From positions 1-59,336 of the forward strand of contig DASYKU010000020.1 of the NCBI GenBank assembly GCA_035995165.1: 59,336 nucleotides of DNA. Reading direction: 5' to 3'. Of the stretch, positions 1-25,221 are shown piece by piece. Below the pieces are notes generated by a model, which was not told the origin of the DNA, did not search any database, and saw only the letters and a list, made by a program, of their open reading frames with translations. A program made the position numbers and the translations under genes. Source of the stretch: Mycobacteriales bacterium. Lineage in GTDB: Bacteria; Actinomycetota; Actinomycetes; Mycobacteriales; CADCTP01. Numbering within the stretch: position 1 is the first letter of the stretch; each line of letters begins with the position of its first letter.

Positions 1-6
1 GACCTC

Positions 7-948
7 TCAGCCGACCGGGACCTCTTCCTCGCGCGGCTCGGCCGGCCGGGCCCGGTCCGCCGCCCGCATGACGATCAGCCCGGCCAGGATGAAGATGATG
101 CCGAGCACCAGGCCCAGCAGCGGCAGCCACAGGTTGACCAGGTTGATCTTGCCGATGTTGTCGTTGGCCAGCTTGGCCTGGGCCTTCTGGGTGGCGTCGT
201 CGAAGGTCAGGTCGTACTGGATCACCGTGGCCTTGTCCTGGCCGGAACTGTCGCGCAGCGTGGTCTTGTTCTGCTCGGCGCCCTTCACGATCACGCCGGT
301 CTTGGGCTCGACCCAGACCGTCCGCGTGTCGGTGTAGAAGACCGGCGCCTGCACGCTGGCCGCGGTCTCCCCCACCAGCGAGCCCGGGACCTCCTGGGTC
401 TGGACCTGCATGGCCGGGACCGTCTGCACGAACTTGTACGTCGTCAGCCCCTGGACCTTGTCCTCGGAGACGAACCTGGCCGGCAGCGAGGTCTTCGAGT
501 TCGGGTCCCAGAACGGGTAGTCCTGCTTCTGGGTGTTGAACGGGAACTTGTAGCTGACCCCCGCGTGCCGGGTCGGCACCGAGTCGACGGACTCGTTGCA
601 GCAGTTCACGGCCTCGGCGCTGCGCCGGTCGCTGGCGACCCGGTCCAGCGTGGCCCGCACGAACGTGCCGTCGCCCGTACCGAGCACGACCGAGACGTCC
701 CAGACCGCGGTGTTCTTGTCGCTGGCGGCGACGTCGGCCTTCACCGTCCGGACCGCGACCAGGTCGGCCGAGCGCTCCTGCAGCGTGGCCGGGTCGAGGT
801 AGGACCCGGGCCCGGGCGCGACCGTCTGCGCGTACTGGTCGATGGGGGTGATGACGACCCGGTCGGCGACGAAGAACCGCAGCAGTCCGGACAGCACGAG
901 CAGGAAGACACCGAGACCGAGGACTATCGGACCCAGGAACCGCCGCAT
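7..948 (-). CDS. DUF3068 (PorA-family) envelope membrane protein
   Basis: A 313-residue protein with an N-terminal transmembrane helix (about residues 6-27), a long extracytoplasmic domain and a second helix near residues 270-294, followed by a short charged tail. This two-helix layout is typical of the DUF3068 family. The N-terminal pattern (helix, then PIDQ and SYLDPATL) resembles M. tuberculosis Rv0227c as I remember it. The biochemical role is unknown; family members lie in mycobacterial arabinan and envelope loci. It is divergent from the acyltransferase at 1093, as in the Rv0227c/Rv0228 pair. Family assignment is fairly sure; function is not. Confidence 0.85.
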   Translation of the reverse strand: MRRFLGPIVLGLGVFLLVLSGLLRFFVADRVVITPIDQYAQTVAPGPGSYLDPATLQERSADLVAVRTVKADVAASDKNTAVWDVSVVLGTGDGTFVRATLDRVASDRRSAEAVNCCNESVDSVPTRHAGVSYKFPFNTQKQDYPFWDPNSKTSLPARFVSEDKVQGLTTYKFVQTVPAMQVQTQEVPGSLVGETAASVQAPVFYTDTRTVWVEPKTGVIVKGAEQNKTTLRDSSGQDKATVIQYDLTFDDATQKAQAKLANDNIGKINLVNLWLPLLGLVLGIIFILAGLIVMRAADRARPAEPREEEVPVG

Positions 949-971
949 GGACTACCCCTCACGTCCCAGCG

Positions 972-988
972 CTGATCCGCATGATCAG
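972..988. promoter_or_regulatory. short palindrome in divergent intergenic region
   Basis: A perfect inverted repeat (CTGATC, five bases, GATCAG) lies in the 144-bp gap between the DUF3068 gene and the divergent acyltransferase gene. It sits 24-40 bases upstream of the DUF3068 start. It could be an operator, but six-base arms can arise by chance. Confidence 0.2.
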
Positions 989-1092
989 TTGGCGAAGGTT
1001 ACCAGCGAGTGTCGGAGGAACGGGACATCTGGGCCCCGCCTGGCCGGGTGCCTGTAACCGCATCGTGATCTATCCGGCCGTACGGTGTCCGG

Positions 1093-2265
1093 ATGGGTGG
1101 GCGGCGGCCGGTGCCGGCACTGGACGGGCTGCGGGCGGTGGCCGCGGCCGCGGTGCTGCTGACCCACGTCGCGTTCCGGACCGGCGAGACCGGGCGCGGT
1201 GCCGGCGGCGCCCTGCTGGCCCGCTTCGACTCCGGCGTCGCCGTGTTCTTCGTGCTCTCCGGCTTCCTGCTCTACCCGGTCACCCCGCCGCTGCGCCGGT
1301 ACGTGCTGCGCCGCGCGGCCCGGATCCTGCCCGCGTACTGGGTGGTGGTGGCGGTGGTCGCGCTCTACGCCTCGGTGCCGGCGACGCACTGGTGGCTGGG
1401 GCAGACGTACGTGGGCGGGCTGGCCGGGCCGCTGACCCAGACCTGGTCGCTCTGCGCGGAGCTCGCGTTCTACGCGGTGCTACCGGGGCTGACGGCGCTG
1501 GCCCGACGCTGGGAATGGCCGGTGATCGCCGGCTGCGCGATGCTCGGGTACGGCTGGATCGCGGCCGTGCACCTGCTCGGCGCGCCGGACCGGCTGCTGC
1601 TCTGGCTGCCCGGGCACCTGGACTGGTTCGCGGCCGGGATGGCGGTGGCCGTGCTGGCCCGCCGCGGCGTCCCAGCCTGGCTGGACCAGCTCGCGCAGTG
1701 GCCCGGCACCTGCTGGGCCACGGCCGGCGCGCTGCTCTTCCTGCTCGCGACGCCGATCGCCGGCCCGCTCACGCTCGCCCCGATCCCCGGCGGCGCCGCG
1801 CTGATCAAGGAGGCCGGGTACTTGGCGGTGGCGACGCTGCTGCTGGTCCCGAGCGCGCTGGGCCCGCAACGCGGCCCGCTCGTGTCAGAGCCGCTGCGGC
1901 TGCTGGGCCGGATCTCCTACGGGGTCTTCCTCTGGCACCTGGTCGTGCTCGACCTGGTCTACCGGCTGACCGGCTGGGCCGACTTCAGCGGCCGGATGCT
2001 GCCGGTCGCGGTGCTCACCGGGCTCGCCTCGGTCGCGATCGGCGGGCTCTCGTGGGTGCTGGTCGAGCGGCCGGCCCTCCGGCTCGCCGACCGGGTCACC
2101 CGGCGGCCGCCAGCCGGACAGCCCGGCCGTGACCAGGCAGAGCGCGAACGCGGCGAGCCCCTGGTCGGCCGCCCGGACCGAGTCGGACCCGGGGTCGGCG
2201 GCGAGCAGGAGGCCGGCGACGGCGAGCGCACCGCCCGCGCCGACGGGACGCCAGCGGCGCGGTAG
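1093..2265 (+). CDS. Acyltransferase family 3 membrane protein
   Basis: A 390-residue polytopic membrane protein of the acyltransferase 3 (OafA/NodX-type) family. It begins with the family signature PALDGLRAVAAAAVLLTHV and has the VFFVLSGFLL motif, many hydrophobic helices and the usual final helix ending in SWVLVERPALRLADR. Such proteins transfer acyl groups to cell-surface glycans. By position it matches Rv0228 next to Rv0227c in M. tuberculosis. The conserved domain ends near base 2100. The last 54 or so codons are low-complexity and antisense to the convergent AftD gene, so the true end may be near 2100-2130. Confidence 0.88.
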   Translation: MGGRRPVPALDGLRAVAAAAVLLTHVAFRTGETGRGAGGALLARFDSGVAVFFVLSGFLLYPVTPPLRRYVLRRAARILPAYWVVVAVVALYASVPATHWWLGQTYVGGLAGPLTQTWSLCAELAFYAVLPGLTALARRWEWPVIAGCAMLGYGWIAAVHLLGAPDRLLLWLPGHLDWFAAGMAVAVLARRGVPAWLDQLAQWPGTCWATAGALLFLLATPIAGPLTLAPIPGGAALIKEAGYLAVATLLLVPSALGPQRGPLVSEPLRLLGRISYGVFLWHLVVLDLVYRLTGWADFSGRMLPVAVLTGLASVAIGGLSWVLVERPALRLADRVTRRPPAGQPGRDQAERERGEPLVGRPDRVGPGVGGEQEAGDGERTARADGTPAAR

Positions 2266-5200
2266 CAGCAGCGCCGCCGCGGCCGCGGCCAGCCCGATCC
2301 ACCCGATGAGCAGGCCGCCGAGCGCGGCGACCGGGACCGCGGGGACCCAGCGCGGGATCGGGATCCCGCCCTCGACCACCGCCGGGCGCTCCGGCTCGCC
2401 GCGGTCGGGCAGCAGCGCCAGCGCGAGCACCAGCAGCGCCGCGACCAGCCCGGCCAGCAGCAGCCGGTCCTGGGTCCGGCCCGGCGCGAACGTGATCTGG
2501 ACGGTGGTGACGCCGCCGGCCGGGATCTCGAAGCCCTGCTGCCAGCCGTCCATCCGCCTGGCCTCCAGCGGCTGCCCGCCGGCGGTCGCCGTCCAGCCCT
2601 TGTTCCAGCCCTCGGCCAGCGCCAGGTAGCCCTTCTCCCCCGCCCCGATCCGGACCGTACGGTGCTCGTCCGACCAGGCCAGCACGGTCACCGGCCGCGG
2701 GGCCGGCGGGTCCGGCAACGCCGCGCTGGACAGCCCGGCGCCCTGCACCTCCAGGGTCGGGGTCGCGGTCGTGGCCATCCGGTGCGGGCCGGCGACGACG
2801 GTGATCGGGCCACCGCAGACGGTCGCGGGCACCGGGCCCAGCGAGAGCAGGGCGGCCGGCGGCACCGCCATCGACAACGCGCGGGCGGTGCCGTCGAGCG
2901 TGACCCGCGGGCCGTCGGCGCAGCCGACCTCGACCGCGCGGGCGGAGGCGGCGGGCGCGCCGGCGAAGGCCACGTCGCGGACGGCGACCGGCCGCGGGGT
3001 GCCGTCCGGCCCGAGCTGCCGGCGGAAGGTCAGCGTGACCCGATCGGTCCGGACCGGCGCGAACGAACCCGTCCCGCGCACCGTCCGGCGCTGGCCGCCG
3101 GCGGCGGTGAGCTCGACCGAGCCGACGCCGGTCCAGTCCGCCCGGGTCAGCCCGGTCAGCGTGACCGTCGAGCCGAGATCGAGACTCAGTCGTGGGCCCT
3201 GGTCGTCGGTGGCCGGCAGCCAGGCCGTCGCCGCGCTCCCGTCGTACGCCGCCCCGGGCCGGGCCGCGGGGTCGGCGACCAGCCGGGACGAGCCGGTGGC
3301 CTGGTAGCCGGCGGTCCGGTCCAGCAGCGCGTCCAGCGCCGGGCCGGGCCGGGGCCGTACGGTCCCGGAGACCGCCACCGAGCCGGACGGCGCGTCGAAC
3401 CGGCGGACCAGCGGCCCGTCCTCCTCGCCGGCCTGGGCCAGCCCGGGGAGGCAGGTCCAGCCGGCGCCGTCCAGCACGCAGTCGCCGCGCCGGCCGTCGG
3501 GCCGCTCACCCAGCACGCTCCACTGCGGGGCCGAGGCCTCGTCCGGGGGCAGCGCGACCGCCTGCCGGACCCGTACGCCGGGGACGGACAGCTCACGCAC
3601 CCCGACGGCGCCGCTGTCCGTGTCCCCGGCGACGCCGGTGATCGTCACCCGGACCCGGGAGGTCTCGCCCTCCGGCAGCCGCACGCTCGCGACCCCGCCG
3701 GTCACGGTCGCGTGCACGGTGCCGAGGTCGGTGGTGACGTCCACGCCGGTGACCCGCGGGCCGAGCGCGGGGTCGTCGAGCAGCTGCACGGTCGCCGACG
3801 GCAGTACCTGCGGCTCCAGCAGCTCCAGCTGGACCCACTGCCCGACGGTGCCGCCGGCCGACACCCAGGACGTGCCGGCGTCGCCGTCGACCGCGGCGGC
3901 CGGCCGCTTGTCCGGGCCGAGGTAGTCCTGGCCCAGCGTGCCGGCGGTGAACGGGTCGTCCGCGCTGCTGGACGCCGTCACCGCGGCCGCGCCCTCCAGC
4001 ACGGCGACGGTCTGCTCCTCCGCGTCGTACGGGCCGATGTCCGGACGCGGGGTCGGGTCGGCGGCACTGAGCGTGGCCGAGTACCGCCGGCCGGGATCGG
4101 CGCCGGGGTTGAACTCGCGCCGCCGCAGCGTGTCGGTCTGCACGCCCTCGACCGCGTCGGCGTCGTTCGCGCCCATCACCGCCCGGCCGGTGAGCAGGCC
4201 CGCGTCGGCCAGCTGCAGCGTCCCCTCCGGGCCGCCGGACAGCGCGATCCCGCCGTCCTCGGGCAGCGAGAACACCCGCGCGGCCCCGGCGACCTGGAAG
4301 ACCTCCACCGCCGGCGGCGGGGTCACCGGCGCGCCGGCCAGCCGGTCGGTGGACCGGAACGGCACCGGCTGCGGCGGCCCGAACGCGGCCGCGAGCCGGA
4401 TCCCGGGCGAGCCGGCCAGCGCGGCCCGGATCACCCCGGGCCGCTCGGCGCCGGACCGGTCCGGGTCCAGGTCGTTGCGCAGCACCACGTACTTCACCCC
4501 GGCCCGGCCCAGCACCTGCGCGTACGCGGCCGAGGGCTGGCCGGTGGCGAAGCGGGCGTCCAGGCCGTCGAGCATCCGGATGCTGCCGGGAGCGCCGAGC
4601 GGGGCCGCGTCCCGGACCGCCCAGGGCGCGCGGGCCAGCGCCTGCAGCGGCTCGTCCCGCGGCGTCCCCCAGCGGTAGACGGGCTGGTTGGAGGACGGTT
4701 CGAGCAGGCTGCGGTCGCCGTCGGAGTGGCTCGCGAGCCAGCTCGCGGCCTGCGACCAGTACGCCGGCGTCTGCTGGTACGCGCCCGCCGGAGCGAGCCC
4801 GCTCCCCCAGGCCGGCAGCAGCGTGATCGCGATCAGCGCGGCGACGACCGCGTACGCGACCGTCCTGACCTGCGGCACTCGTGCTCGGGTCAGCAGCTGG
4901 GCCAGGCCGAGCGTGAGCGGCAGCCGCAGCACCGGATCGACCTTGTGCACGTTGCGCAGCGGCGCGCCCGGCCCGTCCAGCGCGCCCTGCAGGCCGTGCG
5001 CGAGCGGGCCGGTCAGCATGCCGGTGTGCGCGGCCGTGACCAGCACGGTGCCCAGCAGCACGCCGCCGAGCAGCCAGCGCCGGTCCGGCAGCCCCGGCAT
5101 CAGCAGCCCGGCCAGCCCGGCCGCCGCGATCAGCACGGTCACCACGACCAGGCCGGAGGAGGTGGCCAGGTCCCAGCCCGCGGTGAGCACCGGCTGCCCG

Positions 5201-6030
5201 TGCACGACCAGGTAGCCCAGCCAGTGCTCACCGCCGCGCAGGGTGTCGGTCAGACCGGTGACCGCGGTCGTGACCTTGGCGTTCTCGATCAGGTCGAGGA
5301 ACGGGTAGCCGTACTGGCCGAGCAGCAGCAGCGGCAGCACCCACCAGGCCGCGGCCAGCGCGACGATCGGCAGCCACCAGGCCAGCAGCCGGCCGCGGAC
5401 CGGGCGGGCCCGGGTCAGCAGGTAGAGCAGCGGCAGCGGGAGGACCGCGGCGGTGGCGGCGGCGTTCACGCCACCGAGACAGAGCACGCCGACGCCGGAC
5501 AACGCGGCGGCCCTGCGGGCGGGCAGCCGGCCGGTCGCCCCGGCCACCAGCGGCAGCAGCACCCAGGGCAGGACGGCGGCCGGCCAGGCCTCGACCGAGA
5601 TCGTGCCGAGCACGGTCAGCACCCGCGGGCTCAGCGCGTACGCCAGCGCGGAGACCAGCCGGGTGCTCGGCGTACCGATCCCGAGCGCCCCCGCCAGCTT
5701 GTACGCGCCGAGGAAGCCGACCACGAACAGCAGCGCCCACCAGCCCCGCTGCACCGCCCAGCCGGGCACGCCGAGCGCGTGCCCGAGCCAGAAGAACGGC
5801 CCCATCGGCCAGAGGTAGCCGTAGGACTGGTTGGACAGCTGGCCGAAGCCCTGCTGCGGGTCCCACGCCTCCAGCGCCCGGCGCAGGAACCCGCCCGGGT
5901 CGAGGACCAGGTCGGACTTGGTGTCGCCGACGAGCTTGCCCGGCGCCTGGCTGAAGGCGAGCGCGACCAGGGCCACGGCCGCCGCCGTCACCCGCAGCCG
6001 CCGGATCCCAGCCGGCGTCGTCCCGGTCAT
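1885..6030 (-). CDS. aftD: AftD-like alpha-(1->3)-arabinofuranosyltransferase
   Basis: A giant GT-C membrane glycosyltransferase of about 1381 residues. The first luminal loop carries acidic residues (GDTKSDLVLDPGGFL, about residues 33-47), followed by the AftD-like stretch FGQLSNQSYGYLWPMGPFFW. Many membrane helices follow, then a long extracytoplasmic part with discoidin-like (F5/8 C-type) beta-sandwich modules, then C-terminal helices. AftD adds alpha-(1->3) arabinofuranose branches to arabinogalactan and lipoarabinomannan from decaprenyl-phosphoryl-arabinose. The ATG at 6030 is chosen because it overlaps the stop of the upstream methyltransferase (ATGA); the longer frame upstream is a shadow. 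The last 70 or so residues are low-complexity and antisense to the acyltransferase, so the native end may be near 2096. Confidence 0.87.
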   Translation of the reverse strand: MTGTTPAGIRRLRVTAAAVALVALAFSQAPGKLVGDTKSDLVLDPGGFLRRALEAWDPQQGFGQLSNQSYGYLWPMGPFFWLGHALGVPGWAVQRGWWALLFVVGFLGAYKLAGALGIGTPSTRLVSALAYALSPRVLTVLGTISVEAWPAAVLPWVLLPLVAGATGRLPARRAAALSGVGVLCLGGVNAAATAAVLPLPLLYLLTRARPVRGRLLAWWLPIVALAAAWWVLPLLLLGQYGYPFLDLIENAKVTTAVTGLTDTLRGGEHWLGYLVVHGQPVLTAGWDLATSSGLVVVTVLIAAAGLAGLLMPGLPDRRWLLGGVLLGTVLVTAAHTGMLTGPLAHGLQGALDGPGAPLRNVHKVDPVLRLPLTLGLAQLLTRARVPQVRTVAYAVVAALIAITLLPAWGSGLAPAGAYQQTPAYWSQAASWLASHSDGDRSLLEPSSNQPVYRWGTPRDEPLQALARAPWAVRDAAPLGAPGSIRMLDGLDARFATGQPSAAYAQVLGRAGVKYVVLRNDLDPDRSGAERPGVIRAALAGSPGIRLAAAFGPPQPVPFRSTDRLAGAPVTPPPAVEVFQVAGAARVFSLPEDGGIALSGGPEGTLQLADAGLLTGRAVMGANDADAVEGVQTDTLRRREFNPGADPGRRYSATLSAADPTPRPDIGPYDAEEQTVAVLEGAAAVTASSSADDPFTAGTLGQDYLGPDKRPAAAVDGDAGTSWVSAGGTVGQWVQLELLEPQVLPSATVQLLDDPALGPRVTGVDVTTDLGTVHATVTGGVASVRLPEGETSRVRVTITGVAGDTDSGAVGVRELSVPGVRVRQAVALPPDEASAPQWSVLGERPDGRRGDCVLDGAGWTCLPGLAQAGEEDGPLVRRFDAPSGSVAVSGTVRPRPGPALDALLDRTAGYQATGSSRLVADPAARPGAAYDGSAATAWLPATDDQGPRLSLDLGSTVTLTGLTRADWTGVGSVELTAAGGQRRTVRGTGSFAPVRTDRVTLTFRRQLGPDGTPRPVAVRDVAFAGAPAASARAVEVGCADGPRVTLDGTARALSMAVPPAALLSLGPVPATVCGGPITVVAGPHRMATTATPTLEVQGAGLSSAALPDPPAPRPVTVLAWSDEHRTVRIGAGEKGYLALAEGWNKGWTATAGGQPLEARRMDGWQQGFEIPAGGVTTVQITFAPGRTQDRLLLAGLVAALLVLALALLPDRGEPERPAVVEGGIPIPRWVPAVPVAALGGLLIGWIGLAAAAAALLLPRRWRPVGAGGALAVAGLLLAADPGSDSVRAADQGLAAFALCLVTAGLSGWRPPGDPVGEPEGRPLDQHPREPADRDRGEPGEHRDRQHPAAEVGPAGQPVDQVEHDQVPEEDPVGDPAQQPQRL

Positions 6031-6731
6031 CGGCGCCGCAGCACCAGCCAGAGGTTCCAGGTCGCGACCTCGCGCAGCCCGGGGACGGTCAGCAGCGGCC
6101 GGGCGTACCCGGGCAGGTAACGGGGGCGGGCGTCGATCAGCTCGGCGTCGCCGCGGGACCGGGCCCAGCGCAGGCCGGCGGCCACGGAGACCGGGAACAG
6201 GCCGATGCCGTAGCGGTTCTTGGGCGGGTGGTGGTAGCGGCGGCCGTACCGCTCGGCCGCGGTGTAGCCGCCGAGGTAGTGCCAGGGCGAGGTCTCGTGG
6301 CCGCCCCAGGGCGACAGCCAGTTCGTGTACGCGACCACGACCAGCCCGCCGGGGCGGGTCACGCGGACCAGCTCGTCGGCGAACCGCCACGGTGCCGGCA
6401 CGTGCTCCACCACGTTGGAGGAGAAGCAGACGTCGACCGCGTTGTCGGCGACCGGGAGCCGCTCGCCTCGGCCGGCCACGCCGCCCCTCGTCAGTTGAGT
6501 CGGGTCTGAGTCCAGCGCCGTGTAGGTCGCCCCGGCCCGGTGGAACGCGGCCGCGAACTGCTTCGGGCCGGCGCCGACGTCGAGCACGTGCCGACCGGCC
6601 AGCGCGCCGTGCTCCTCGACCAGCCGGACCGAGTCGCGGGCGAGTAATCCGTAGAAGGCCTCGGGCTCGGTCTGCTCAACCCGAAAAGCACGCAGCAATG
6701 CCATCGAACGTCGCACACCGGCACCGTGCAC
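6027..6731 (-). CDS. SAM-dependent methyltransferase (Rv0224c-like)
   Basis: A 234-residue class I methyltransferase. Motif I is VLDVGAGPKQFA, with the acidic end of strand 2 at ALDSDPTQL and a later motif CFSSNVVEHVPAPWRF. The C-terminal half keeps GGHETSPWHYLGG and PPKNRYG, which match my memory of M. tuberculosis Rv0224c closely. The substrate is unknown; context suggests an envelope glycan or lipid. The GTG at 6731 is preferred because the residues before the internal ATG at 6704 (RRS) also align with Rv0224c. The stop overlaps the AftD start by 4 bp, so the two are translationally coupled. Confidence 0.88.
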   Translation of the reverse strand: MHGAGVRRSMALLRAFRVEQTEPEAFYGLLARDSVRLVEEHGALAGRHVLDVGAGPKQFAAAFHRAGATYTALDSDPTQLTRGGVAGRGERLPVADNAVDVCFSSNVVEHVPAPWRFADELVRVTRPGGLVVVAYTNWLSPWGGHETSPWHYLGGYTAAERYGRRYHHPPKNRYGIGLFPVSVAAGLRWARSRGDAELIDARPRYLPGYARPLLTVPGLREVATWNLWLVLRRR

Positions 6732-6782: not shown

Positions 6783-7763
6783 TCACCCGGGACGGTGAGC
6801 GGTCAGCTCCAGGGACGGCCGCAGCCGGGGGTGGGCCAGCCGGGCCGTGACCGTGATCGGGGCGGTGACCAGGGCGGACAGCACGGTGCCGCGTTCCGGC
6901 AGCACGCCCGCGGGTCTGTGCACGGGCTGTGCCCGACGACGCAGGCTCGCGACCTCCATCGACAGGTTGTCCAACGCCAACCGCCGTACGCGGACGCCGT
7001 CGAAGCCGGCTCGCCGCAACGACCTCGTCGCCGAGTCGGGCGAGAAGAAACGGAGGTGGGTCGGGTCCTCCAGCAGCCACCAGGCCGCGCCGAACCAGTC
7101 CGCGCCTGCGGAATCCGCGGTCGGCGTGATCAGCGCCAGCGTCCCGCCCGGCCTGAGCAACCGGTACGCCGCAGCAAGCCCCTTCTCCGGATCCGTGAGG
7201 TGCTCCAGCACGTGCACCCCGACGACGAGGTCGTACTGCCCCCCATCCGCAGCCGCGCCGACCTCCGCGGCGTCCGGGTCGGCGCCGGCGCTCTCGGCGG
7301 CCGCGGCGGCGGCCGGGTCGGTGCCATCGCTCTCGGCGGCCGCGGCGGCGTCCGGGTCGGCGCCGGCGCTGGTCGCCGGGACCATGTCTTCCAGCTGACC
7401 GGAGGTCAGAGCCCCGCGGCGGCGGACCTCGGGGTCGACGTCGACCTCGAGCTGACCGGCGTCGACGCCACCGACCGCCCAGCCCGCGTCGAGGAACCGG
7501 CGCAGCAGGGCGCCCGACCCGTACCCGATCTCGAACACCGAGCGGCCGTGCGGCACCAGCGCGCGCAGCCGGCGCTCGGTGAGCCGGAGCCGCACCGCGT
7601 CCAGACCCGGATCTCCCCCGTACCCGGCGTCGCGCGCATTGGCCGGACAGTCTGTGAAATCCCGCTGCACATGGCGGCAGTCCGGACAGCGCTGTAGGAC
7701 CCCGCCCCCGCGCAGACGCCAGTCCTGCAGGCCAGCGCCGCACACCTCGCACTGCCGCGACAT
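6783..7763 (-). CDS. Zinc-ribbon class I methyltransferase with Ala/Asp-rich insert
   Basis: A 326-residue protein. It opens with a treble-clef or zinc-ribbon pattern (C5-x2-C8, then C26-x2-C29) followed by a Rossmann methyltransferase core with motif I VFEIGYGSGALLRRFL and the typical GVHVLEHLTDPEKGL segment. This architecture resembles sugar C-methyltransferase-like and Methyltransf_23 proteins. The core is interrupted by a low-complexity insert rich in Ala, Asp, Glu and Ser, encoded by a 39-bp tandem repeat. It shares strand with the Rv0224c-like gene 51 bases downstream. The substrate cannot be told. Confidence 0.83.
   Translation of the reverse strand: MSRQCEVCGAGLQDWRLRGGGVLQRCPDCRHVQRDFTDCPANARDAGYGGDPGLDAVRLRLTERRLRALVPHGRSVFEIGYGSGALLRRFLDAGWAVGGVDAGQLEVDVDPEVRRRGALTSGQLEDMVPATSAGADPDAAAAAESDGTDPAAAAAAESAGADPDAAEVGAAADGGQYDLVVGVHVLEHLTDPEKGLAAAYRLLRPGGTLALITPTADSAGADWFGAAWWLLEDPTHLRFFSPDSATRSLRRAGFDGVRVRRLALDNLSMEVASLRRRAQPVHRPAGVLPERGTVLSALVTAPITVTARLAHPRLRPSLELTAHRPG
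7273..7370 (-). repeat. 39-bp tandem repeat inside methyltransferase gene
   Basis: Two and a half copies of a 39-bp unit (7273-7311, 7312-7350, partial 7351-7370) differ at only a few positions. Because 39 is a multiple of three, each copy adds 13 residues of an Ala/Glu/Ser/Asp/Pro-rich linker without breaking the reading frame. Confidence 0.85.
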
Positions 7764-9111: not shown

Positions 9112-9300
9112 TCAGCGCTGGTCGTAGCTGATCAGCGGCCGGTTGACCGGCGGCGCGTCACTGTCGGACGCCGAGGAGACCAGTACGAGCGAAGCCCCGA
9201 TGGCGAGCAGACCACCGATGACGGCCGCGACCACGGCCGAGATGAGGATGGCGCCCCGGTCCTTGGGGCTGGTCCGCTCTGCACTGAGCACGTCGGCCAC
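9112..9300 (-). CDS. DUF2613 small single-pass membrane protein
   Basis: A 62-residue protein with one membrane helix (about residues 19-42, rich in Ala, Val, Ile and Gly) and a short polar C-terminus. The opening MADVL and the single helix fit the actinobacterial DUF2613 family of small secreted or membrane proteins. Its mycobacterial member (Rv0236A) lies directly beside aftD. The start lies 9 bases after the stop of the large membrane protein upstream, so the two are co-transcribed. A GTG start at 9300 is used; an in-frame GTG at 9291 is an alternative. It may be an accessory subunit of a GT-C enzyme. Confidence 0.72.
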   Translation of the reverse strand: MADVLSAERTSPKDRGAILISAVVAAVIGGLLAIGASLVLVSSASDSDAPPVNRPLISYDQR

Positions 9301-17275: not shown

Positions 17276-18688
17276 ATGGGTACCGGCCGCGCCGTCCGCC
17301 ACCGGTCCGGCGGCCTGACCAGCGGCGTGATCCTCGGCGTGGCCAGCGGGATCGCCACCGCGCTCGGCTACCTGTTCACCGCCGTCCTGGCCCGGTCGTT
17401 CACGGCCTCGGACTACGGCGCCCTGGTCGCGCTGCTCGGTGCCGGCTTGATCGGCACGATCCCCGCCGCCGGGTTCCAGTACGTGGTGGCCCGCCGTACG
17501 GTCGCGCTCGGCCTCCCGCCGGGTCGCAACGACGGGTCGTCGCTACGGCTGTCCGGCTTCGCCGGGATCGGCCTGCTGGCGATCGGGGCCGCGGTGACCG
17601 TGCCGGCCCGGTCCTGGCTGCACCTCGACGGAGCGCAGCCGATGCTCGCGCTGGCGGTGTCGCTCGTCCCGCTCACGCTGGCCGGCGCGTTCCAGGGCGC
17701 GCTGCTCGGGCACCGGCGGTTCGCCGCCCTCGGCGCGATGTACGTGGCCAGCGCGCTGACCCGGCTCGCTGCCGGGGTGGCCACCGCGCTGGCCGGCTGG
17801 GGCGTGACCGGCGCATTCTGGGCGCTGGCCGGCGCGGCGGTGTTGAGCACCGGCTTCGGCTGGCTGCTGACCGGGATGCGGTCCTGGGCTCCGGCCGGCA
17901 CCGGCACGGCGACGCTGGCCCGGGAGATCCTGCAGGCCTGCTCGACGGTGGCCGGCATCCTCGTGCTGACGAACACGGATGTCCTGCTGGCCCGGCACTA
18001 CCTCGACGCCGAGACCTCCGGGGCGTACGGCGTGGCCTCGCTGTTCGCAAAGGCGATGCTGTGGGGATCGCAGTTCGTCGTGCAGGCGGCGTACCCGGCG
18101 CTGGCCGCGATGCAGGGACGCCGCCGGCTGCTCGTACGCACGCTGGCCGCGACCGCCGGGCTCGGCCTGCTCGGCATCGCCGGCACGGCACTGGCCGGCC
18201 GCCCGCTGGTGCGGCTGGCCACGGGCAGCGGCTACGGCCTCGGGACGGGGACGCTGGTCGCGTTCGCGGTCCTCGGGGTCGTGTGGGCGCTGACGCAGGT
18301 GCTGCTGCTGGCCGCGGTGGCGGTCGGCGACCGCCGGCCGAGCCGGCTGCTGTGGGGGCTGATCGTGGCCGAGGCCGCGGTGGTCGCCGCGGGGCCGCAC
18401 AACTCCCCCGGCGAGATCCTGGCGGTCTGTACGGTCGGCGTCCTGCTGTTCGGCGGGCTGATCGCGGCGCTCGAGTGGTCCGCCCGCGGTGCCGGCCCGC
18501 CGGCACCGGTTCCGGTCTCAGCAGCCGACCCGACCCCGCCCGCCGCCCCGCTGTCCGCCGCCCCGTCCGACCACCCGGAGGAAGACGAGGGGAACGGGCC
18601 CGCCGCCACGGCGAGCGGGCCGGCGGTGGGCGGTGCGGCGGTGGCTCGGGGTGGGACGGCGGATCGACCCGAGCCGTCGTCCCGGTAG
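17276..18688 (+). CDS. Wzx-type polysaccharide flippase
   Basis: A polytopic protein of about 470 residues of the MOP/Wzx (polysaccharide biosynthesis) superfamily. It has about 12 hydrophobic helices, and its start (GVILGVASGIATALGYLFTA, then VLARSFTASDYGALVAL) is typical. The C-terminal 80 or so residues are a disordered Pro/Ala-rich cytoplasmic tail. It should move lipid-linked oligosaccharides across the membrane for the enzymes encoded beside it. The ATG at 17276 sits five bases after GGAGG; a GTG at 17270 is the alternative. It is divergent from the AftD paralog and followed by a methyltransferase gene. Confidence 0.88.
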   Translation: MGTGRAVRHRSGGLTSGVILGVASGIATALGYLFTAVLARSFTASDYGALVALLGAGLIGTIPAAGFQYVVARRTVALGLPPGRNDGSSLRLSGFAGIGLLAIGAAVTVPARSWLHLDGAQPMLALAVSLVPLTLAGAFQGALLGHRRFAALGAMYVASALTRLAAGVATALAGWGVTGAFWALAGAAVLSTGFGWLLTGMRSWAPAGTGTATLAREILQACSTVAGILVLTNTDVLLARHYLDAETSGAYGVASLFAKAMLWGSQFVVQAAYPALAAMQGRRRLLVRTLAATAGLGLLGIAGTALAGRPLVRLATGSGYGLGTGTLVAFAVLGVVWALTQVLLLAAVAVGDRRPSRLLWGLIVAEAAVVAAGPHNSPGEILAVCTVGVLLFGGLIAALEWSARGAGPPAPVPVSAADPTPPAAPLSAAPSDHPEEDEGNGPAATASGPAVGGAAVARGGTADRPEPSSR

Positions 18689-18699: not shown

Positions 18700-19539
18700 G
18701 TGGACACCGCCGCGTTCGCCGCCCGGTTGCCGGCCTGCTTCGCGGCCGCCGATCTGTACGCGGACACGCCGCTCGATCGCCGCTTCGCCAAGGTCGTCGA
18801 GACCGTCGACGGGATGTCGACCGAGCACACGCTGACGCTGCTCAACCTGGCCGCGTCGATGCTGCCGGCCGGCGAGAGCTACCTGGAAGTGGGCTCGTAC
18901 CGGGGTCGTTCGGCGGTCGGTGCCGCGCTCGGCCACCCGGATGGGACGTTCACCGCGATCGAGAACTTCCGGGAGTTCGGGCTGGACCCGGCCGAGAGCG
19001 AGCGGTTGCTCCGGGCCGCACTGCGGGACTGGGACGTCGCCGAGCAGGTCCGGCTGCTGCCTGGCGATGCCTTCCGGCTGCTTCGCGGCGCGGTGCCCGG
19101 CCCGGCCGGCGTCTACTTCTACGACGGCGCGCACTCCCGGCTGGCCCAGCACCTCGGCCTCGGCCTGGCCGAGCCGGTGCTGGCCGACGAGGCCCTGGTC
19201 GTCGTCGACGACGCCTCCTGGCCTCAGGTCGAACGGTCCACGGCTCGCTACGTCGCCCGGCATCCCGGCTATCGCCTGCTGTTCGACCTGCGGGCCGAGC
19301 AGGCCGAGGACCCCCGCTGGTGCAACGGAGTCAAGGTGTACGCGTGGCATCGCCCCGCCGGCGCCCGAGGGCCACGCCTCGACCTGGCCTGGCGCCGGCT
19401 GGCGCACCTCTCCCTGCACGAACCGGCGCTCGCCGCGGCCTGGCGGGTGCTGCCCCGCTACCCACGACTGTCCGCCGCGCTCAAACGCGTCTACCTGCAC
19501 GGCGGGAGCGACGTCCCGCCCCCGGCCGAGAGGTGCTGA
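18700..19539 (+). CDS. Class I methyltransferase (Methyltransf_24 type), copy 1
   Basis: A 279-residue protein with the SAM-binding motif SYLEVGSYRGRSAVGAAL, the acidic TAIENFREFG after strand 2, VYFYDGAHSRLAQHL and the DEALVVVDDASWPQV segment seen in Methyltransf_24 proteins of glycan clusters. The GTG at 18700 is chosen because the paralog at 19541-20401 starts at the equivalent position with ATG (MDT..FAA). It starts 11 bases after the flippase stop. Its stop is one base away from the stop of the convergent paralog. A sugar O-methyltransferase role is inferred from context. Confidence 0.86.
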   Translation: MDTAAFAARLPACFAAADLYADTPLDRRFAKVVETVDGMSTEHTLTLLNLAASMLPAGESYLEVGSYRGRSAVGAALGHPDGTFTAIENFREFGLDPAESERLLRAALRDWDVAEQVRLLPGDAFRLLRGAVPGPAGVYFYDGAHSRLAQHLGLGLAEPVLADEALVVVDDASWPQVERSTARYVARHPGYRLLFDLRAEQAEDPRWCNGVKVYAWHRPAGARGPRLDLAWRRLAHLSLHEPALAAAWRVLPRYPRLSAALKRVYLHGGSDVPPPAERC

Positions 19540-19540: not shown

Positions 19541-20401
19541 CTAGTCCGTCCCGCCGGGCCGCACCGGGTCCGGCTGCGCGACGGTCCGGGACCGCTTCGG
19601 CACCAGCCGGGTCGCCGCCGGCACCAGCCCGGGCCAGCGGTTCAGCGCGCGCCAGACCAGCGAGGTGGCCGGACCGCGGGCGTACACCTGCACCAGCCGC
19701 CGCCACCGCACGTCCACGCTCACGCGGCGCGGCGCCCCGGCGGGCCGTCGCCAGGCGAGCACGAGCAGGCCGTTCGCCCAGCGCGGGTCGTGGTCTCCCG
19801 CGGCCCGGATGTCCCGCAGCACGGTCCAGCCCGGGTGCCGGTCCAGGTAGCGGCGGGTCGCCGCCTCGACCATCGGGTACGACGAGTCGTCCACCAGCAC
19901 CAGGGCCTCGTCGGCCAGCAGCGGCTCGACCACGCCCAGAGCCAGGTAATGGGCCAGGCCGGTGTGCGCGCCGTCGTAGAAGTAGACCCCTACCGGCTCC
20001 GGCACCGCACCGGGCCGGGCCAGCACGGCGAAGCAGTCGCCGTCCCGCAGGACCAGCCGGTGCCCGGCGCCGTGCCGGGCCAGGTTGGCCAGCAGCTCGA
20101 CCCGGGACGCCTCGGCCAGCATGCCGAACTCGCGGAAGCTCTCCACCGCCACGTACGTACGATCCGGCGCGTCCAGCAGCGCCCCCGCCATCGACCGGCC
20201 CTTGAGCGTGCCGACCTCGAGGTACGCCTCCCCCGGCGGCAGCAGCCGGGCGGCCAGGTTGAGCGCCGCGAGCTCCGCCGCCGTGGAGTGCCCGGCGACC
20301 TCGGCCGTGATCGCGGTGAAGCGCGGGTCGGCCGGGACGCCGTCGGCCAGCGGGCCGTCGAACAGCCCGTCGAGGGCGGCCGCGAACGCCGAGGTGTCCA
20401 C
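19541..20401 (-). CDS. Class I methyltransferase (Methyltransf_24 type), copy 2
   Basis: A 286-residue paralog of the convergent gene. It has motif I AYLEVGTLKGRSMAGALL, the acidic VAVESFREFG, VYFYDGAHTGLAHYLALG and ADEALVLVDDSSYPMVE, all aligned with copy 1. It diverges mostly in the N-terminal 50 residues. The two genes lie tail to tail, so this looks like an old inverted duplication. It is divergent from the OafA-type acyltransferase across 57 bp. The substrate is probably a surface sugar. Confidence 0.86.
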   Translation of the reverse strand: MDTSAFAAALDGLFDGPLADGVPADPRFTAITAEVAGHSTAAELAALNLAARLLPPGEAYLEVGTLKGRSMAGALLDAPDRTYVAVESFREFGMLAEASRVELLANLARHGAGHRLVLRDGDCFAVLARPGAVPEPVGVYFYDGAHTGLAHYLALGVVEPLLADEALVLVDDSSYPMVEAATRRYLDRHPGWTVLRDIRAAGDHDPRWANGLLVLAWRRPAGAPRRVSVDVRWRRLVQVYARGPATSLVWRALNRWPGLVPAATRLVPKRSRTVAQPDPVRPGGTD

Positions 20402-20458: not shown

Positions 20459-22384
20459 GTGACGTCGGCGACGGGGCTGCGCTACCGGCCCGGGCTCGAC
20501 GGCATCCGGGCGGTCGCGGTGCTGGCCGTGCTGCTCTACCACGGTCAGGTCGGCTGGGCCCGCGGCGGATTCCTCGGCGTGGACGTGTTCTTCGTGCTCA
20601 GCGGCTACCTCATCACGGGGCTGTTGCTGACCGAGTGGCGGCGGTGGGGATCGATCGACCTGCGCCGGTTCTGGTTGCGGCGCGCCCGAAGGCTGCTGCC
20701 GGCGCTGTTCCTGCTCCTGACCGTGGTCTCGGTCGGCGCGGCGGCGCTGGCCTCGCCCGCGCAACGGGGGGCGCTGCGCGGCGACGCGCTCGCCACCCTC
20801 GGCTACGTCGCCAACTGGCGGTTCGTCCTGGCCGGCCGGTCCTACTTCGCGCAGTACGACGATCCGTCGCCGCTGCGGCACATGTGGTCGCTGGGCATCG
20901 AGGAGCAGTTCTATCTGCTCTACCCGCTGCTGCTGATCGGGCTGCTGAGCCTGGGCCTGCGCCGACGTGGGCTCGCCGCCGTACTCGGGCTCGGCGCGCT
21001 CGCGTCGGCCGGACTGGCCGCGCTGCTCTACCAGCCGGGCGCCGACCCGTCCCGGGTCTACTACGGCACCGACACCCGCCTGCAGGCGCTGCTGGTCGGC
21101 GCCGTCGCCGCCGTGCTGGCGGGCGAGGTGAGCACCCGCAACCGGCGTCCGGCGGCGTACGTGTCGATGGCCGGGCGGGAGGTCCCGCTGCCCGGTCGCG
21201 GGTCGAGCGGGCTGTTCGCGCTCGCCGGGCTGGGCGTCCTGCTGGTCGCGGCCCGGGACACCGCGGGCTGGCTCTATCAGGGCGGCTTCCTGCTCGTCGC
21301 CGCGCTGGCCGTGGTCGTCGTGCTGAGCGCGGCGGACGACCGGTCGACCACGGCCCGGCTGCTGTCCTGGGAGCCGCTGCGTCGCATCGGCCTGGTCTCC
21401 TATGGGCTCTACCTCTGGCACTGGCCGGTCTACGTCGTGCTCACCCCCGACCGGGTCGGCGCCCACGGCCCCGCGTTGCTGGTCCTCCGGCTCGCGGTCA
21501 CCGGACTGCTCGCCACCGCGTCGTACGTGCTGGTCGAACGGCCGGTCCGGGCCGGCGCGCTCGGCCGGCGCTGGCCCGCGCGGCGGCTGCGCCCGCTGAT
21601 CGCCGGCGTCCTGGTCGCCGTCGTCGCGGTCGTTCTCGGCGGTACCGCCGGGGCCGGGCCGCCCGCCGGGGCGCCGACCGCTCCGGCCGCGGCCCAGCAG
21701 CGCGGGTCGGACGACGTCGCCGCCTACCTGCTGGGTGACTCGGTGCCGTACAGCCTGCGGATCGGGTTCCGGCCCGAGACCGTGCCGGGGCTGTTCGTGG
21801 CCGGCAGTACCCAGCTCGGGTGCGGGTTGATCCCGGTGCCGCTGGCGGTGGACGGCCAGCCCAAGACGATCGACGCGCGATGCCGGCCGTGGGACGCCGC
21901 CTGGCCGGCCGACGTGACCGCGGTGAACCCGGACGTCGCCGTGCTCTTCCCCGGCATCGGCGAGCAGTTCGACCAGGTCGTGGGCGGCCGGATCGTCACG
22001 TTCGGCACTCCCGCGTACGAGCAGCACCTGGTCCGGGTGCTCGACTCCGACACCCGCCGGCTCGGCGTCGGCCGGCGGCCGGTCGCGCTGGTCACGGTCG
22101 GCTGCCACCAGGTGCCCGACAGCGGGCTCAGCCCCGACCCCGCGATCATCAACGACGAGTCCCGGGTGCGCTGGCTCAACGGGGTGCTGACCCGGTACGC
22201 CGCCCGCCAGGGCGGCCGGGTCACACTGCTGGACCTGCACGGCTTCCTCTGCGCCGACGGCTACGCCGCGACCCGCGACGGTGTCACGCTGCGCTCGGAC
22301 GGCCTGCACTTCAGCGGGGCCGGAGCGGCCGTGGTCTGGCGCTGGCTGGGCCCGCAGCTGATCCAGCTGGCCGGCCGGAACTAG
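20459..22384 (+). CDS. OafA/YrhL-type acyltransferase with C-terminal SGNH domain
   Basis: A 641-residue protein. The membrane half (to about residue 390) has the acyltransferase 3 hallmarks RPGLDGIRAVAVLAVLLYH, GVDVFFVLSGYLITG, RRARRLLPAL and MWSLGIEEQFYLLYPLLL. The extracytoplasmic C-terminal half is an SGNH hydrolase-like domain with the block I motif AYLLGDSVPYSL and the block V motif DGLHFSGAGA. Such fusions O-acetylate surface polysaccharides, the membrane part bringing the acetyl group across and the SGNH part transferring it. The start is GTG at 20459. It differs from the acyltransferase at 1093, which has no SGNH domain. Confidence 0.92.
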   Translation: MTSATGLRYRPGLDGIRAVAVLAVLLYHGQVGWARGGFLGVDVFFVLSGYLITGLLLTEWRRWGSIDLRRFWLRRARRLLPALFLLLTVVSVGAAALASPAQRGALRGDALATLGYVANWRFVLAGRSYFAQYDDPSPLRHMWSLGIEEQFYLLYPLLLIGLLSLGLRRRGLAAVLGLGALASAGLAALLYQPGADPSRVYYGTDTRLQALLVGAVAAVLAGEVSTRNRRPAAYVSMAGREVPLPGRGSSGLFALAGLGVLLVAARDTAGWLYQGGFLLVAALAVVVVLSAADDRSTTARLLSWEPLRRIGLVSYGLYLWHWPVYVVLTPDRVGAHGPALLVLRLAVTGLLATASYVLVERPVRAGALGRRWPARRLRPLIAGVLVAVVAVVLGGTAGAGPPAGAPTAPAAAQQRGSDDVAAYLLGDSVPYSLRIGFRPETVPGLFVAGSTQLGCGLIPVPLAVDGQPKTIDARCRPWDAAWPADVTAVNPDVAVLFPGIGEQFDQVVGGRIVTFGTPAYEQHLVRVLDSDTRRLGVGRRPVALVTVGCHQVPDSGLSPDPAIINDESRVRWLNGVLTRYAARQGGRVTLLDLHGFLCADGYAATRDGVTLRSDGLHFSGAGAAVVWRWLGPQLIQLAGRN

Positions 22385-22456
22385 CCGCAACCGGCGGGCC
22401 GAGCGACTGCGACGAGTCGGACGGCCGGCCAGGTCGAGGCGGTCCGGCGGGACGCG

Positions 22457-22813
22457 CTAGTCCCGGTAGATCGGGGACTCGCCGTCGTCGCTGCGGGTCC
22501 GCTCCTCCCGCCGGGACGAGCCGAAGACGAGCAGGCCGCCGACCGCGACGATCACGGCACCGCCCGCCAGGAAGCCCGCGTCCAGCTGGCGGCGCTCGCT
22601 GAGCCGGCCGCAGACGTTCTTCTGGAACTGGTCGGTAGGCGGCCGCAGCCCTGACCCGCAGGCGAACACGGGTCCCTGCGGACTCTGGATGTCGATCGGC
22701 GCGACCATCCGGTACGCCGCCAGGACCAGCACCAGCAGTCCCAGCAGCAGGAAGGCACGCGCTCCGCGGGTGAGCACGAAGACCGTCCGGCCGACCGGCC
22801 GCTGATCCGACAT
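22457..22813 (-). CDS. Two-helix small membrane protein, unknown function
   Basis: A 118-residue protein with two membrane helices (about residues 19-38 and 79-99). The loop between them contains two cysteines (VFACGSGLRPPT and KNVCGRL), which could form a disulfide outside the cell. The C-terminus is polar and charged. The ATG at 22813 is preferred over the GTG at 22870 because the longer form would run into the leader of the divergent kinase gene. I do not recognise a named family. Confidence 0.7.
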   Translation of the reverse strand: MSDQRPVGRTVFVLTRGARAFLLLGLLVLVLAAYRMVAPIDIQSPQGPVFACGSGLRPPTDQFQKNVCGRLSERRQLDAGFLAGGAVIVAVGGLLVFGSSRREERTRSDDGESPIYRD

Positions 22814-22890
22814 GCGCGGGAGCCTACGACACCAGCCGGTAACGCCCGGACCGGGTCGGTAGGGTGCCATGTCCGGTGAGGAGGCCTGCC

Positions 22891-23895
22891 GTGGTGGTCA
22901 GAGCTCGAGCGCCGTTGCGGCTCAGCTTCGCGGGTGGCGGGACCGACGTGGCGCCGTTCCCGGAGACCGAGGGCGGCGTCGTCCTGTCCGCCACCATCAA
23001 CCGGTACGCGTACGGCTCGCTGACGCCCCGCCAGGACGCCCGGATCTCCGTGCACTCGCTCGACCTCGGCGTCTCGCTCGACTTCGACGCGCGCGACGAG
23101 CCGACGTTCGACGGCCGGCTGGACCTGGTCAAGGCGGCGGTCCGGCGGCTCGGCGGCGACACGGCCGGCTTCGACCTGCTGCTGCAGTCCAACGCGCCGC
23201 CCGGGTCCGGGCTGGGCTCGTCCTCGACGATGCTCGTCGCGCTGGTCGGCCTGCTGCGCGAGCACCACCGGCTGCCGCTGACCGACTACGAGGTGGCCGA
23301 TCTCGCGTACCAGGCCGAGCGGGTCGACCTCCGGATCCGCGGCGGGCACCAGGACCACTACGCGGCCACGTTCGGCGGCTTCAACTTCATCGAGTTCGGC
23401 GAGCGGGTGATCGTCAACCCGCTGCGGGTGCGGGACGCGGTCGTCGACGAGCTCCAGCTGAACCTGCTGCTCTGCTACACCGGCACCACCCGGCAGTCCT
23501 CGAAGATCATCGAGGACCAGAGCGCGCGGCTGGCCGGCGGCGAGCTCGAGACGCTGGAGGGACTGCGGGCGCAGAAGGAGCTCGCGGTCGCGATGAAATC
23601 GGCGCTGCTGCGGGGTGAGCTGCCCGAGTTCGGCTCGCTGCTGGGCGAGGCCTGGAAGCAGAAGAAGCGGATGTCGCCGCTCATCGCCACCGACTTCATC
23701 GAGGAGGCGTACGACGTGGCGATGCGGGCCGGCGCGCTCGGCGGCAAGGTCACCGGGGCCGGGGGCGGCGGTTACATCCTCTTCTACTGCGACTTCGCCA
23801 GGAAGCACCGGCTGGCGGCGGCGCTGACCCGGATGGGTGGCGTCGTCACCGACTTCGCGTTCGAGCCCAAGGGGCTGACCACCTGGCGCGCGTGA
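22891..23895 (+). CDS. GHMP kinase, D-glycero-D-manno-heptose-7-phosphate kinase-like
   Basis: A sugar kinase of about 334 residues in the GHMP superfamily. The N-terminal RAPLRLSFAGGGTDVAPF is typical of HddA-type heptose-7-phosphate 1-kinases. The ATP loop is PPGSGLGSSSTMLVAL, and the C-terminal GHMP motif is GGKVTGAGGGGYILFYC. It should phosphorylate the anomeric carbon of a sugar 7-phosphate on the way to a GDP-activated sugar. The GTG at 22891 is chosen because AGGAGG lies six bases upstream; a longer GTG start at 22864 lacks a good ribosome site. No partner epimerase, isomerase or nucleotidyltransferase is in the window. Fucokinase-like activity is an alternative. Confidence 0.85.
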   Translation: MVVRARAPLRLSFAGGGTDVAPFPETEGGVVLSATINRYAYGSLTPRQDARISVHSLDLGVSLDFDARDEPTFDGRLDLVKAAVRRLGGDTAGFDLLLQSNAPPGSGLGSSSTMLVALVGLLREHHRLPLTDYEVADLAYQAERVDLRIRGGHQDHYAATFGGFNFIEFGERVIVNPLRVRDAVVDELQLNLLLCYTGTTRQSSKIIEDQSARLAGGELETLEGLRAQKELAVAMKSALLRGELPEFGSLLGEAWKQKKRMSPLIATDFIEEAYDVAMRAGALGGKVTGAGGGGYILFYCDFARKHRLAAALTRMGGVVTDFAFEPKGLTTWRA

Positions 23896-23973
23896 GCCGC
23901 CCCGTCATCCCACGCCGGTAAGCCCGTCCGTGATACCAAGTGCGCGCGGCCGTCGATCCCGGGAGAATTCGCT

Positions 23974-25221
23974 CTGACCACCACCACCTCACCGCTGCCC
24001 GGCGCGCCGGTCGAGCGGACGGCGACCTCGGGCGGCATCGCCGCTGCGGTCGGCACCACCGCGGCCAACGTCCTGTCGTACGGGTTGAGCCTGGCCGGGG
24101 CCCGGCTGCTCGTGCCGTCCGAGTACGGCGTGCTGGTCGCGTTGCTCGCGGTCACCCTGGTCGCCTCCGTGCCCGCGCTGGCGCTGCAAGCGGTGGTCGC
24201 GGTCCGGGTCGTCCGGGCGCCGGTGGCCGACCGCGGCCGGGTGGTGGCCGAGTCGCTGGGCCTCGGGCTCGCCGCCGGGGCCGCGATGGTCCTGGTCGGG
24301 CTGGCCGCCACGCCGGTGCTGGACCGGTTCCTCGCCCTCGGCGGACCCGGGCCGACGATCTGGGTCGCGATCGCGGTCGGCGCGACCACCGTGCTCGCGG
24401 TGCCGCAGGGCGTCGCCCAGGGCCGGCAGGACTTCCACCGGCTCGCGCTGATCCTGGTCGTGTACGCGGCGGTCCGGCTGGTCGGTGGGCTCGCCGGGCT
24501 GATCCTCTTCGACTCCGTGACCGGCGCGCTGGCCGGGGTGGCCGCCGGGGTGGCGGCGTCGCTCGTCGTCGCCTGGGTGCTGACCGGGCGGCCGCGGCCG
24601 GCCCGCGGCGGCTGGCGGGTACGGGAGCTGCTGGTCGCCGGGCAGGCGCTGGCCGGGCTCTACCTGCTGACCAACCTCGACCCGGTGCTGGCGCGGCACT
24701 ATCTGCCCGCGGCCGAGGCCGGGCTGTACGGCGCGGGCGCGGTGCTGGCCAAGGCCGCGTTCTTCCTGCCGCAGGCGGTCGTGCTGGTGCTGTTCCCGCG
24801 GCTGGCGTCGGCGCCCCGGCCGGGCCGGACGCTCTGGGCCGGGCTGGCCGCGCTGGCCGGGCTCGGGCTGCTGATGACGGTGGTGACGCGGCTGGCCGGC
24901 GGGCTCGCGGTCACCGCGGTCGGCGGCGACGCGTACCGGGAGCTGGCCGGGCCGGCCTGGTTGTTCGTGGCGGTCGGGTCGGCGCTCGGCGTGGTCCAGT
25001 TGCTGCTCTACGCGCAGCTCACCGCGGCCCGGGCGACCGCGACGATCGCGGTCTGGGCCGTGGTCGCGGTCGAAGCGGTCGTGGTCGCGACGATCTCGCA
25101 CGGCAGCCTGGTCGAGGTCGTCAGTGCCGCGCTCGGGACCGCGCTCGTCGCGGCCGTGCTCGGCCTCGCCTGGACCGCCCGCTCCCACCGCCCGACCCCC
25201 ACCCCCACCCCCGCCGCCTGA
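23974..25221 (+). CDS. Second Wzx-type flippase, probable CTG start
   Basis: A polytopic MOP-superfamily flippase of about 415 residues. The first helix (GGIAAAVGTTAANVLSYGLS) and SLAGARLLVPSEYGVLVALL are typical. The frame is open back to the stop of the kinase gene at 23895, but it has no ATG, GTG or TTG until a TTG at 24085 that would cut the first helix in half. A CTG at 23974, eight bases after GGGAG, gives a full N-terminus, so this start is proposed. If TTG 24085 is used the protein has 378 residues. It lies 78 bp after the kinase gene on the same strand. Confidence 0.82.
   Translation: MTTTTSPLPGAPVERTATSGGIAAAVGTTAANVLSYGLSLAGARLLVPSEYGVLVALLAVTLVASVPALALQAVVAVRVVRAPVADRGRVVAESLGLGLAAGAAMVLVGLAATPVLDRFLALGGPGPTIWVAIAVGATTVLAVPQGVAQGRQDFHRLALILVVYAAVRLVGGLAGLILFDSVTGALAGVAAGVAASLVVAWVLTGRPRPARGGWRVRELLVAGQALAGLYLLTNLDPVLARHYLPAAEAGLYGAGAVLAKAAFFLPQAVVLVLFPRLASAPRPGRTLWAGLAALAGLGLLMTVVTRLAGGLAVTAVGGDAYRELAGPAWLFVAVGSALGVVQLLLYAQLTAARATATIAVWAVVAVEAVVVATISHGSLVEVVSAALGTALVAAVLGLAWTARSHRPTPTPTPAA

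Follow-up and report, generated by a model that had tools for sequence, protein, structure and literature searches.

A gene cluster at the left end of contig DASYKU010000020.1 from a Mycobacteriales bacterium (59,336 nucleotides; this whole stretch is referred to as the window) encodes two giant membrane proteins of the AftD type, AftD1 and AftD2, together with the predicted glycosyltransferase (GT) MmpA, the lipid-binding protein PgfA and two flippase-like proteins, Wzx1 and Wzx2. With a little better than even confidence, we read this locus as an assembly line that builds a lipid-linked surface glycan, has two parallel extracytoplasmic branches and uses a sugar donor outside the known route to decaprenyl-phosphoryl-arabinose (DPA). 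By family model and synteny, the core genes are homologous to the Corynebacterineae locus tmaT-mmpA-mtrP-pgfA(lmcA)-aftD (NCgl2759-2765; Rv0224c-Rv0236c; PMC8698533, PMC8972800, PMC7775120). There, TmaT, MtrP and MmpA have been placed at the export of trehalose-corynomycolate (PMC8698533), PgfA/LmcA has been connected with binding of trehalose monomycolate and with lipomannan and lipoarabinomannan synthesis (PMC9678360, PMC8972800), and interactions of PgfA with AftD and with TmaT have been described (PMC6656915). AftD, MmpA/Rv0226c and PgfA/Rv0227c have been reported to be essential or predicted to be so in mycobacteria (PMC6656915, PMC8698533), where their exact roles are unsettled. A search of the available literature for AftD in non-mycolate actinobacteria returned nothing relevant.

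The window is the entire contig (C20) of a 5.37-Mb genome in 162 contigs (G000) and has a G+C content of about 74%. Genes were predicted by codon-model calling and families were assigned by Pfam and NCBIfam profile scans; all genome comparisons refer to sampled sets. The gene content that an earlier note had read from positions 1 to 25221 was borne out by gene calling and family models. The locus starts with PgfA/LmcA (7..948, minus strand), a CD36-like lipid-binding barrel of the DUF3068 type (NF053601 283 bits, cut-off 160; PF11271 E 4e-84), and a TmaT-like AT3 membrane acyltransferase (1093..2265, plus; PF01757 88 bits), whose position next to AftD is syntenic in relatives. AftD1 (1885..6030, minus) is a giant GT-C protein carrying F5/8-type C carbohydrate-binding modules (PF11847 717 bits, cut-off 26; phmmer against Mycobacterium abscessus AftD 6w98 E 2e-175). 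It overlaps by an ATGA with the methyltransferase MT11 (Methyltransf_11; 6027..6704, minus; PF08241 63 bits), which occupies the MtrP position and is 49-60% identical to its relatives. The glycosyltransferase GT4a (7844..9004, plus; PF00534/PF13692), in an Rv0225-like position, recurs in most of the order's families at about 50% identity. It is followed by a DUF2613-like small membrane protein (9112..9300, minus; PF11021 19.2 bits, under the cut-off of 22.1), which has a 43% identical homologue at the equivalent place in locus L038, and by MmpA (9310..10971, minus; NF053599 424 bits, cut-off 210). PgfA, the TmaT-like AT3, the MtrP-like methyltransferase and MmpA are thus all present together. 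At the right-hand end of the core stand Wzx2 (24085..25221, plus; TTG start assigned, N-terminus uncertain), an alpha/beta hydrolase-like protein (ABH; 25553..26974, minus) whose 44-56% identical homologues in families f2, f9 and f12 lie close to AftD or in the interval from Wzx to PolA, and DNA polymerase I (PolA; 27042..29744, minus; PF00476 481 bits), which lies outside the function of the locus and forms a conserved border that relatives share.

The core order PgfA-AT3-AftD-MT11-GT4a-(DUF2613)-MmpA-Wzx, often followed by ABH and polA, was recovered in at least 12 loci of families f2 (L042, L046, L067), f3 (L043, L044), f9 (L033 with L065), f12 (L038, L078) and f16 (L034, L073, L074) and of family f21 from another order (L102 being an example from another order), and partial core sets occur in f14 and f15. 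The left half of the 1-25221 block plus Wzx2-ABH-PolA (24085-29744) is therefore the usual locus of the order, and the block extends beyond position 25221 to take in ABH and PolA. Chance origin of the gene set is excluded by the scores and the repeated synteny. The identity of the mycobacterial core set proposed earlier was upheld; the supposed oddity of its lying in one cluster was not, since a single cluster is found in most relatives examined. In the sampled Mycobacterium genome G008, aftD is located about 12-20 kb away from the remaining core genes. As a minor feature, the 3' ends of aftD1 and the convergent AT3 gene share about 380 bases (1885-2265); many relatives show a shorter overlap between these two genes.

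Between MmpA and Wzx2, the window carries 13 kb that most relatives lack, encoding GT4b, GT2, AftD2, Wzx1, two Methyltransf_24 proteins (MT24a and MT24b), an AT3-SGNH protein, a small protein and a sugar kinase. AftD2 (12811..17073, minus; PF11847 172 bits, cut-off 26) is a second, deeply diverged AftD-type giant with a carbohydrate-binding module. It is followed by GT2 (12014..12814, minus; PF00535 68 bits), which has 50-55% identical homologues adjoining AftD2 in genomes G594, G338, G310 and G325, and by GT4b (10968..12017, minus; PF13692 82 bits), with 53-57% identical homologues near AftD2 in G594, G123 and G338. Wzx1 (17276..18688, plus) is transcribed divergently. AftD2, GT2, GT4b and MmpA are joined by four-base overlaps of start and stop codons (GTGA, GTGA, ATGA), so that the AftD2 module appears coupled to MmpA. 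A role of GT2 as a polyprenyl-phosphate sugar synthase was considered and rejected, as the protein is without membrane segments and its motifs, by eye, resemble those of an ordinary chain-elongating GT2.

In the order-level sample of 298 genomes, of which 131 were AftD-positive, an AftD2-type protein was found in only two, the window genome and G123, where a contig of 5.5 kb carries it next to a GT4b of 57% identity. No AftD2, GT4b, GT2, MT24 or kinase was found in G001, a 96% complete genome of the same genus. Genome G594, from another order, contains almost all of the 25-kb mosaic including both AftDs, in the gene list PgfA, a SIS (sugar isomerase) protein, kinase (56% identity), AT3, AftD1, MT11 (58%), MT23 (43%), GT4a, MmpA, GT4b (53%), GT2 (55%), AftD2 (43%), Wzx1 (36%), MT24b (46%), three AT3-SGNH proteins, small protein (33%) and polA, with the order of AftD2-GT2-GT4b-MmpA maintained. 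The only AftD in G338, G310 and G325, which belong to another class, is AftD2 (40-42%), and it occurs together with GT2, Wzx, PgfA and MmpA; GT4b and MT24 are additionally present in G338, and GT4a in G338 and G325. A scan of genome contigs for AftD2 gave two distant matches, one in a metagenome-assembled genome and one in Streptomyces monomycini. The combination with a second AftD-like module noted earlier is thus real but not unique to the window, and its two halves are not separate in all relatives, being joined in G594 although the module is absent from G001. In family f34, a protein of 131-148 amino acids is encoded between AftD2 and GT2; its assignment as a GtrA flippase was rejected, as no Pfam match exceeded the cut-off, and by eye it resembles a split-off C-terminal membrane part of AftD2.

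A quick tree of AftD separated two deep clades with full support (Shimodaira-Hasegawa-like approximate likelihood ratio test, SH-aLRT, 100). AftD1 groups with the Mycobacteriales, and the window AftD2 is sister to the AftD2 of G594 (99) within an eight-row clade (100) mostly from genomes of other classes. An equally quick Wzx tree repeated this split, as Wzx1 falls with its G594 counterpart (99) and with loci of other classes (89), and Wzx2 with the core flippases of the Mycobacteriales (88), indicating that each AftD travels with its own flippase. The two flippase assignments are provisional, with Wzx2 barely above the PF13440 cut-off (25.7 bits, cut-off 23) and Wzx1, which has no Pfam match, recognized by its homology to flippases in the loci of relatives that also match Wzx2. 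Genomes G060 (L036, L037), G136 (L064) and G240 (L075) carry two to three AftD1-type genes each, some in tandem.

The restricted distribution of the module raises the question of whether two unrelated systems lie side by side, that is, a core AftD1 locus and an exopolysaccharide or capsule cluster (AftD2, Wzx1, MT24, AT3-SGNH, kinase) placed alongside by horizontal transfer. Its absence from G001, its occurrence within the order only in the window genome and G123, and the grouping of AftD2 and Wzx1 with other classes would fit such an origin. We nevertheless regard it as rather unlikely, because AftD2-GT2-GT4b is joined to MmpA through overlapping codons, the same mosaic order occurs in G594, and other-class AftD2 is found with PgfA and MmpA. 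An atypical base composition of the insert was also considered and rejected, as that of the 13-kb block equals the remainder of the window.

The GT-C domain of AftD2 was modeled with a predicted local distance difference test score (pLDDT) of 82 and a predicted template modeling score of 0.85. As phmmer against the PDB gave no match for AftD2, its similarity to known structures was established by fold comparison, in which the model aligned with AftD 6w98 over 605 residues (Z 29.8, root mean square deviation 4.3; Foldseek E 6e-18), ahead of oligosaccharyltransferases (Z about 22). AftD1 by sequence and AftD2 by fold thus resemble mycobacterial AftD (PF11847; M. abscessus 6w98, 6wbx, 6wby), whereas AftD2 belongs to a separate deep clade and is only 22-25% identical to the AftD1 rows across the GT-C domain. 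Both proteins share D55, E289, R305, W310, R357 and R401 and are therefore both probably active glycosyltransferases, as judged from sequence. D55, in the first outer loop, is Asp in 27 rows of a 29-row alignment, with one Glu and one Gly. PF00754 (F5/8 type C) modules follow the GT-C domain in both AftD1 and AftD2, and the CBM_AftD model scored 24.9 and 27.7 bits, respectively, against a cut-off of 27. The AftD1 of G594 (L086:9083-11317) sits on a long branch, carries Glu in place of D55 and no longer has the conserved W469, R484 and D566; it gives the impression of a protein that is changing or decaying in the presence of AftD2.

MmpA was modeled with a pLDDT of 91 and matched AftD 6w98 over 480 of its 553 residues (Z 20.7); profile comparison with AftD (hhalign) gave E 1e-24. 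Its invariant Asp33 follows a strand, as does D55 in AftD2. From its modeled look, MmpA is probably a small GT-C glycosyltransferase, and D33 of MmpA, as well as D55 and E289 of AftD2, may have catalytic roles. In corynebacteria, partial homology of MmpA to AftD was noted, a function as membrane anchor was proposed, and no homologues were seen outside corynebacteria and mycobacteria (PMC8698533). The window MmpA scores well above the cut-off of the corresponding trehalose lipid delivery family (NF053599) but differs from that description in its GT-C fold, predicted across nearly the whole protein, in the lack of a Pks13 match in its genome and in the occurrence of MmpA matches in 17 genomes outside the class. 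Glycosyltransferase activity of MmpA is a prediction of this reading.

The earlier note had suggested an arabinan- or pentose-containing polysaccharide and proposed to look for emb, aftA-C and DprE genes elsewhere in the genome. This search was run for Emb, AftA and DprE1/DprE2, and found none of them. In a 61-genome sample scanned for Emb (PF04602), neither G000 nor G001 had a match; Emb was present in the mycobacterial family f8, most of f14 and part of f16, and no AftD-carrying genome outside f8 has it. A joined query of mycobacterial DprE1, DprE2, UbiA, AftA (part), GlfT2 (part) and Pks13 (C-terminal part), whose sources were assigned by NCBIfam or by position, gave no match at E <= 1e-15 in G000, G001, G037, G017, G594 or G325. 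As controls, Mycobacterium matched all parts, and f12, f9 and f16 matched DprE1/DprE2/UbiA at 43-54% identity. A family-level search for DprE1 was also without a match in G000 and G001. Within the order, 49 of the 131 AftD-positive genomes lacked DprE1, comprising all 29 of f15, five of six of f2, both of f3, both of f1, five of nine of f9, four of 15 of f16, one of five of f12, one of nine of f14 and none of the 54 of f8; outside the order, the data are those of the few genomes given the joined query. Some of these absences will be gaps in fragmentary genomes, but those of f15 cannot all be. As the known DPA, Emb, galactan and Pks13 genes were not found, the donor is probably not arabinose from the DprE route. 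The reverse of the window genome is seen in several f14 genomes, in which Emb and DprE1 occur without AftD.

These results bear on an arabinan locus in which both AftDs would add arabinofuranose from DPA to an arabinan-bearing polymer. Such a function could be expected from AftD1 as a clear homologue of the solved mycobacterial AftD, from the retained invariant residues, from the DPA genes within the same locus in G052 and from DprE1 in most AftD genomes of f8, f12, f14 and f16; given that DprE1, DprE2, UbiA, AftA, GlfT2 and Emb were found in neither G000 nor G001, we consider it improbable. A trehalose-mycolate-type lipid export locus like tmaT/mmpA/mtrP of Corynebacterium is very improbable. 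PgfA and MmpA do exceed the NCBIfam cut-offs for mycolate-export proteins, but at E <= 1e-15 the genome gave no match to the Pks13 C-terminal region, further classes of the phylum have these genes as well, and the MmpA fold is GT-C.

In the proposed assembly line, the cytoplasmic GT4a, GT4b and GT2 would begin glycan synthesis on a lipid carrier, and Wzx2 of the core and Wzx1 of the AftD2 module would flip the intermediates. Outside the membrane, AftD1, AftD2 and probably MmpA would extend the chain with sugars taken from polyprenyl-phosphate donors, with the carbohydrate-binding modules of the AftDs keeping it in place. Decoration of the glycan would fall to AT3, AT3-SGNH and the methyltransferases, and PgfA, as a lipid-glycan carrier, may handle the lipid-linked product. 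This order of steps, the donor and the product are our conjecture, and one or two polymers would both be possible. With its putative flippases, GT2 and GT4 enzymes, methyltransferases and AT3-SGNH, the locus resembles Wzx-dependent clusters of the capsule or O-antigen type, but its chain is more likely to be extended by the GT-C giants.

Several points weigh against the proposed assembly line. No Wzy was recognized in the locus, a genome-wide search for Wzy or a ligase not having been made. The invariant AftD residues do not differ between genomes that have DprE1 and genomes that lack it, and the sequence therefore does not show a changed donor. DPA could arise by an unrecognized route. In addition, homologues of ubiA, dprE1 and dprE2 lie within the core cluster of G052 (f9; L033:739-3672), between mmpA and the AT3-aftD pair, so that AftD is genuinely linked with arabinose wherever this donor is available.

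Compared with the Corynebacterineae locus, the window genome is without Emb, DPA-synthesis and Pks13 matches and has a second AftD module with a second flippase. These results together suggest that the mycobacterial arabinan and mycolate roles are later additions to an older glycan-export locus of the Actinomycetota, and we read the known mycobacterial roles as specialized uses of this older line. In its full form, this proposal holds that AftD, MmpA and PgfA constitute an ancient glycan-assembly system of the Actinomycetota using a non-arabinose polyprenyl-phosphate sugar, that MmpA is a glycosyltransferase and not a transporter or anchor, that the arabinan and trehalose-mycolate roles were recruited later, and that in some lineages two AftD systems operate, each served by a flippase of its own. 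We advance it tentatively, and would sooner expect it to fail in some part than to hold throughout. Genomes that keep the cluster and its invariant residues but yielded neither the known DPA genes nor Pks13 provide natural backgrounds for reading the original substrate without arabinan or mycolate.

The remaining genes agree with an envelope-glycan locus with methyl and acetyl decorations, which had been proposed from the sequence and is supported by the family content. They encode the Methyltransf_23 protein MT23 with a Cys-rich N-terminus (6783..7763, minus; PF13489 78 bits), MT24a (18700..19539, plus; PF13578 36 bits; 55% identical homologue in G338) and its paralogue MT24b (19541..20401, minus; PF13578 36 bits), and an OafA-like AT3-SGNH glycan O-acyltransferase (20459..22384, plus; PF01757 96 bits; SGNH PF19040 weak, 19 bits). 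A small protein with two transmembrane segments (22457..22813, minus) is conserved in G594 (33% to L087:9174-9737).

The GHMP sugar kinase (22864..23895, plus) is of the HddA (heptose 7-phosphate kinase) type but reaches only 301 bits against the NF049969 equivalog cut-off of 600, and was not filed as an HddA equivalog. The previously suggested link to heptose nevertheless gained modest support. A paralogue of 81-85% identity is encoded on contig C124, in an operon of the order HAD (haloacid dehalogenase; GmhB type)-SIS (GmhA type)-kinase-WecG-type GT, and in G594 the kinase adjoins a GmhA-type SIS protein inside the AftD locus. Heptose is therefore a plausible component of the product, as far as gene content can suggest. 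The C124 operon is part of a second surface-polysaccharide cluster (G000:C124:35000-55000; L154), which also has a Polysacc_synt_3 flippase, a WsaF-like GT and an AT3 protein. Farther along the window, the neighbors at 31269-45823 are ordinary, namely a branched-chain amino acid ATP-binding cassette transporter, tRNA-Leu, a pyridoxal phosphate-dependent decarboxylase, pyruvate kinase and glutamate synthase.

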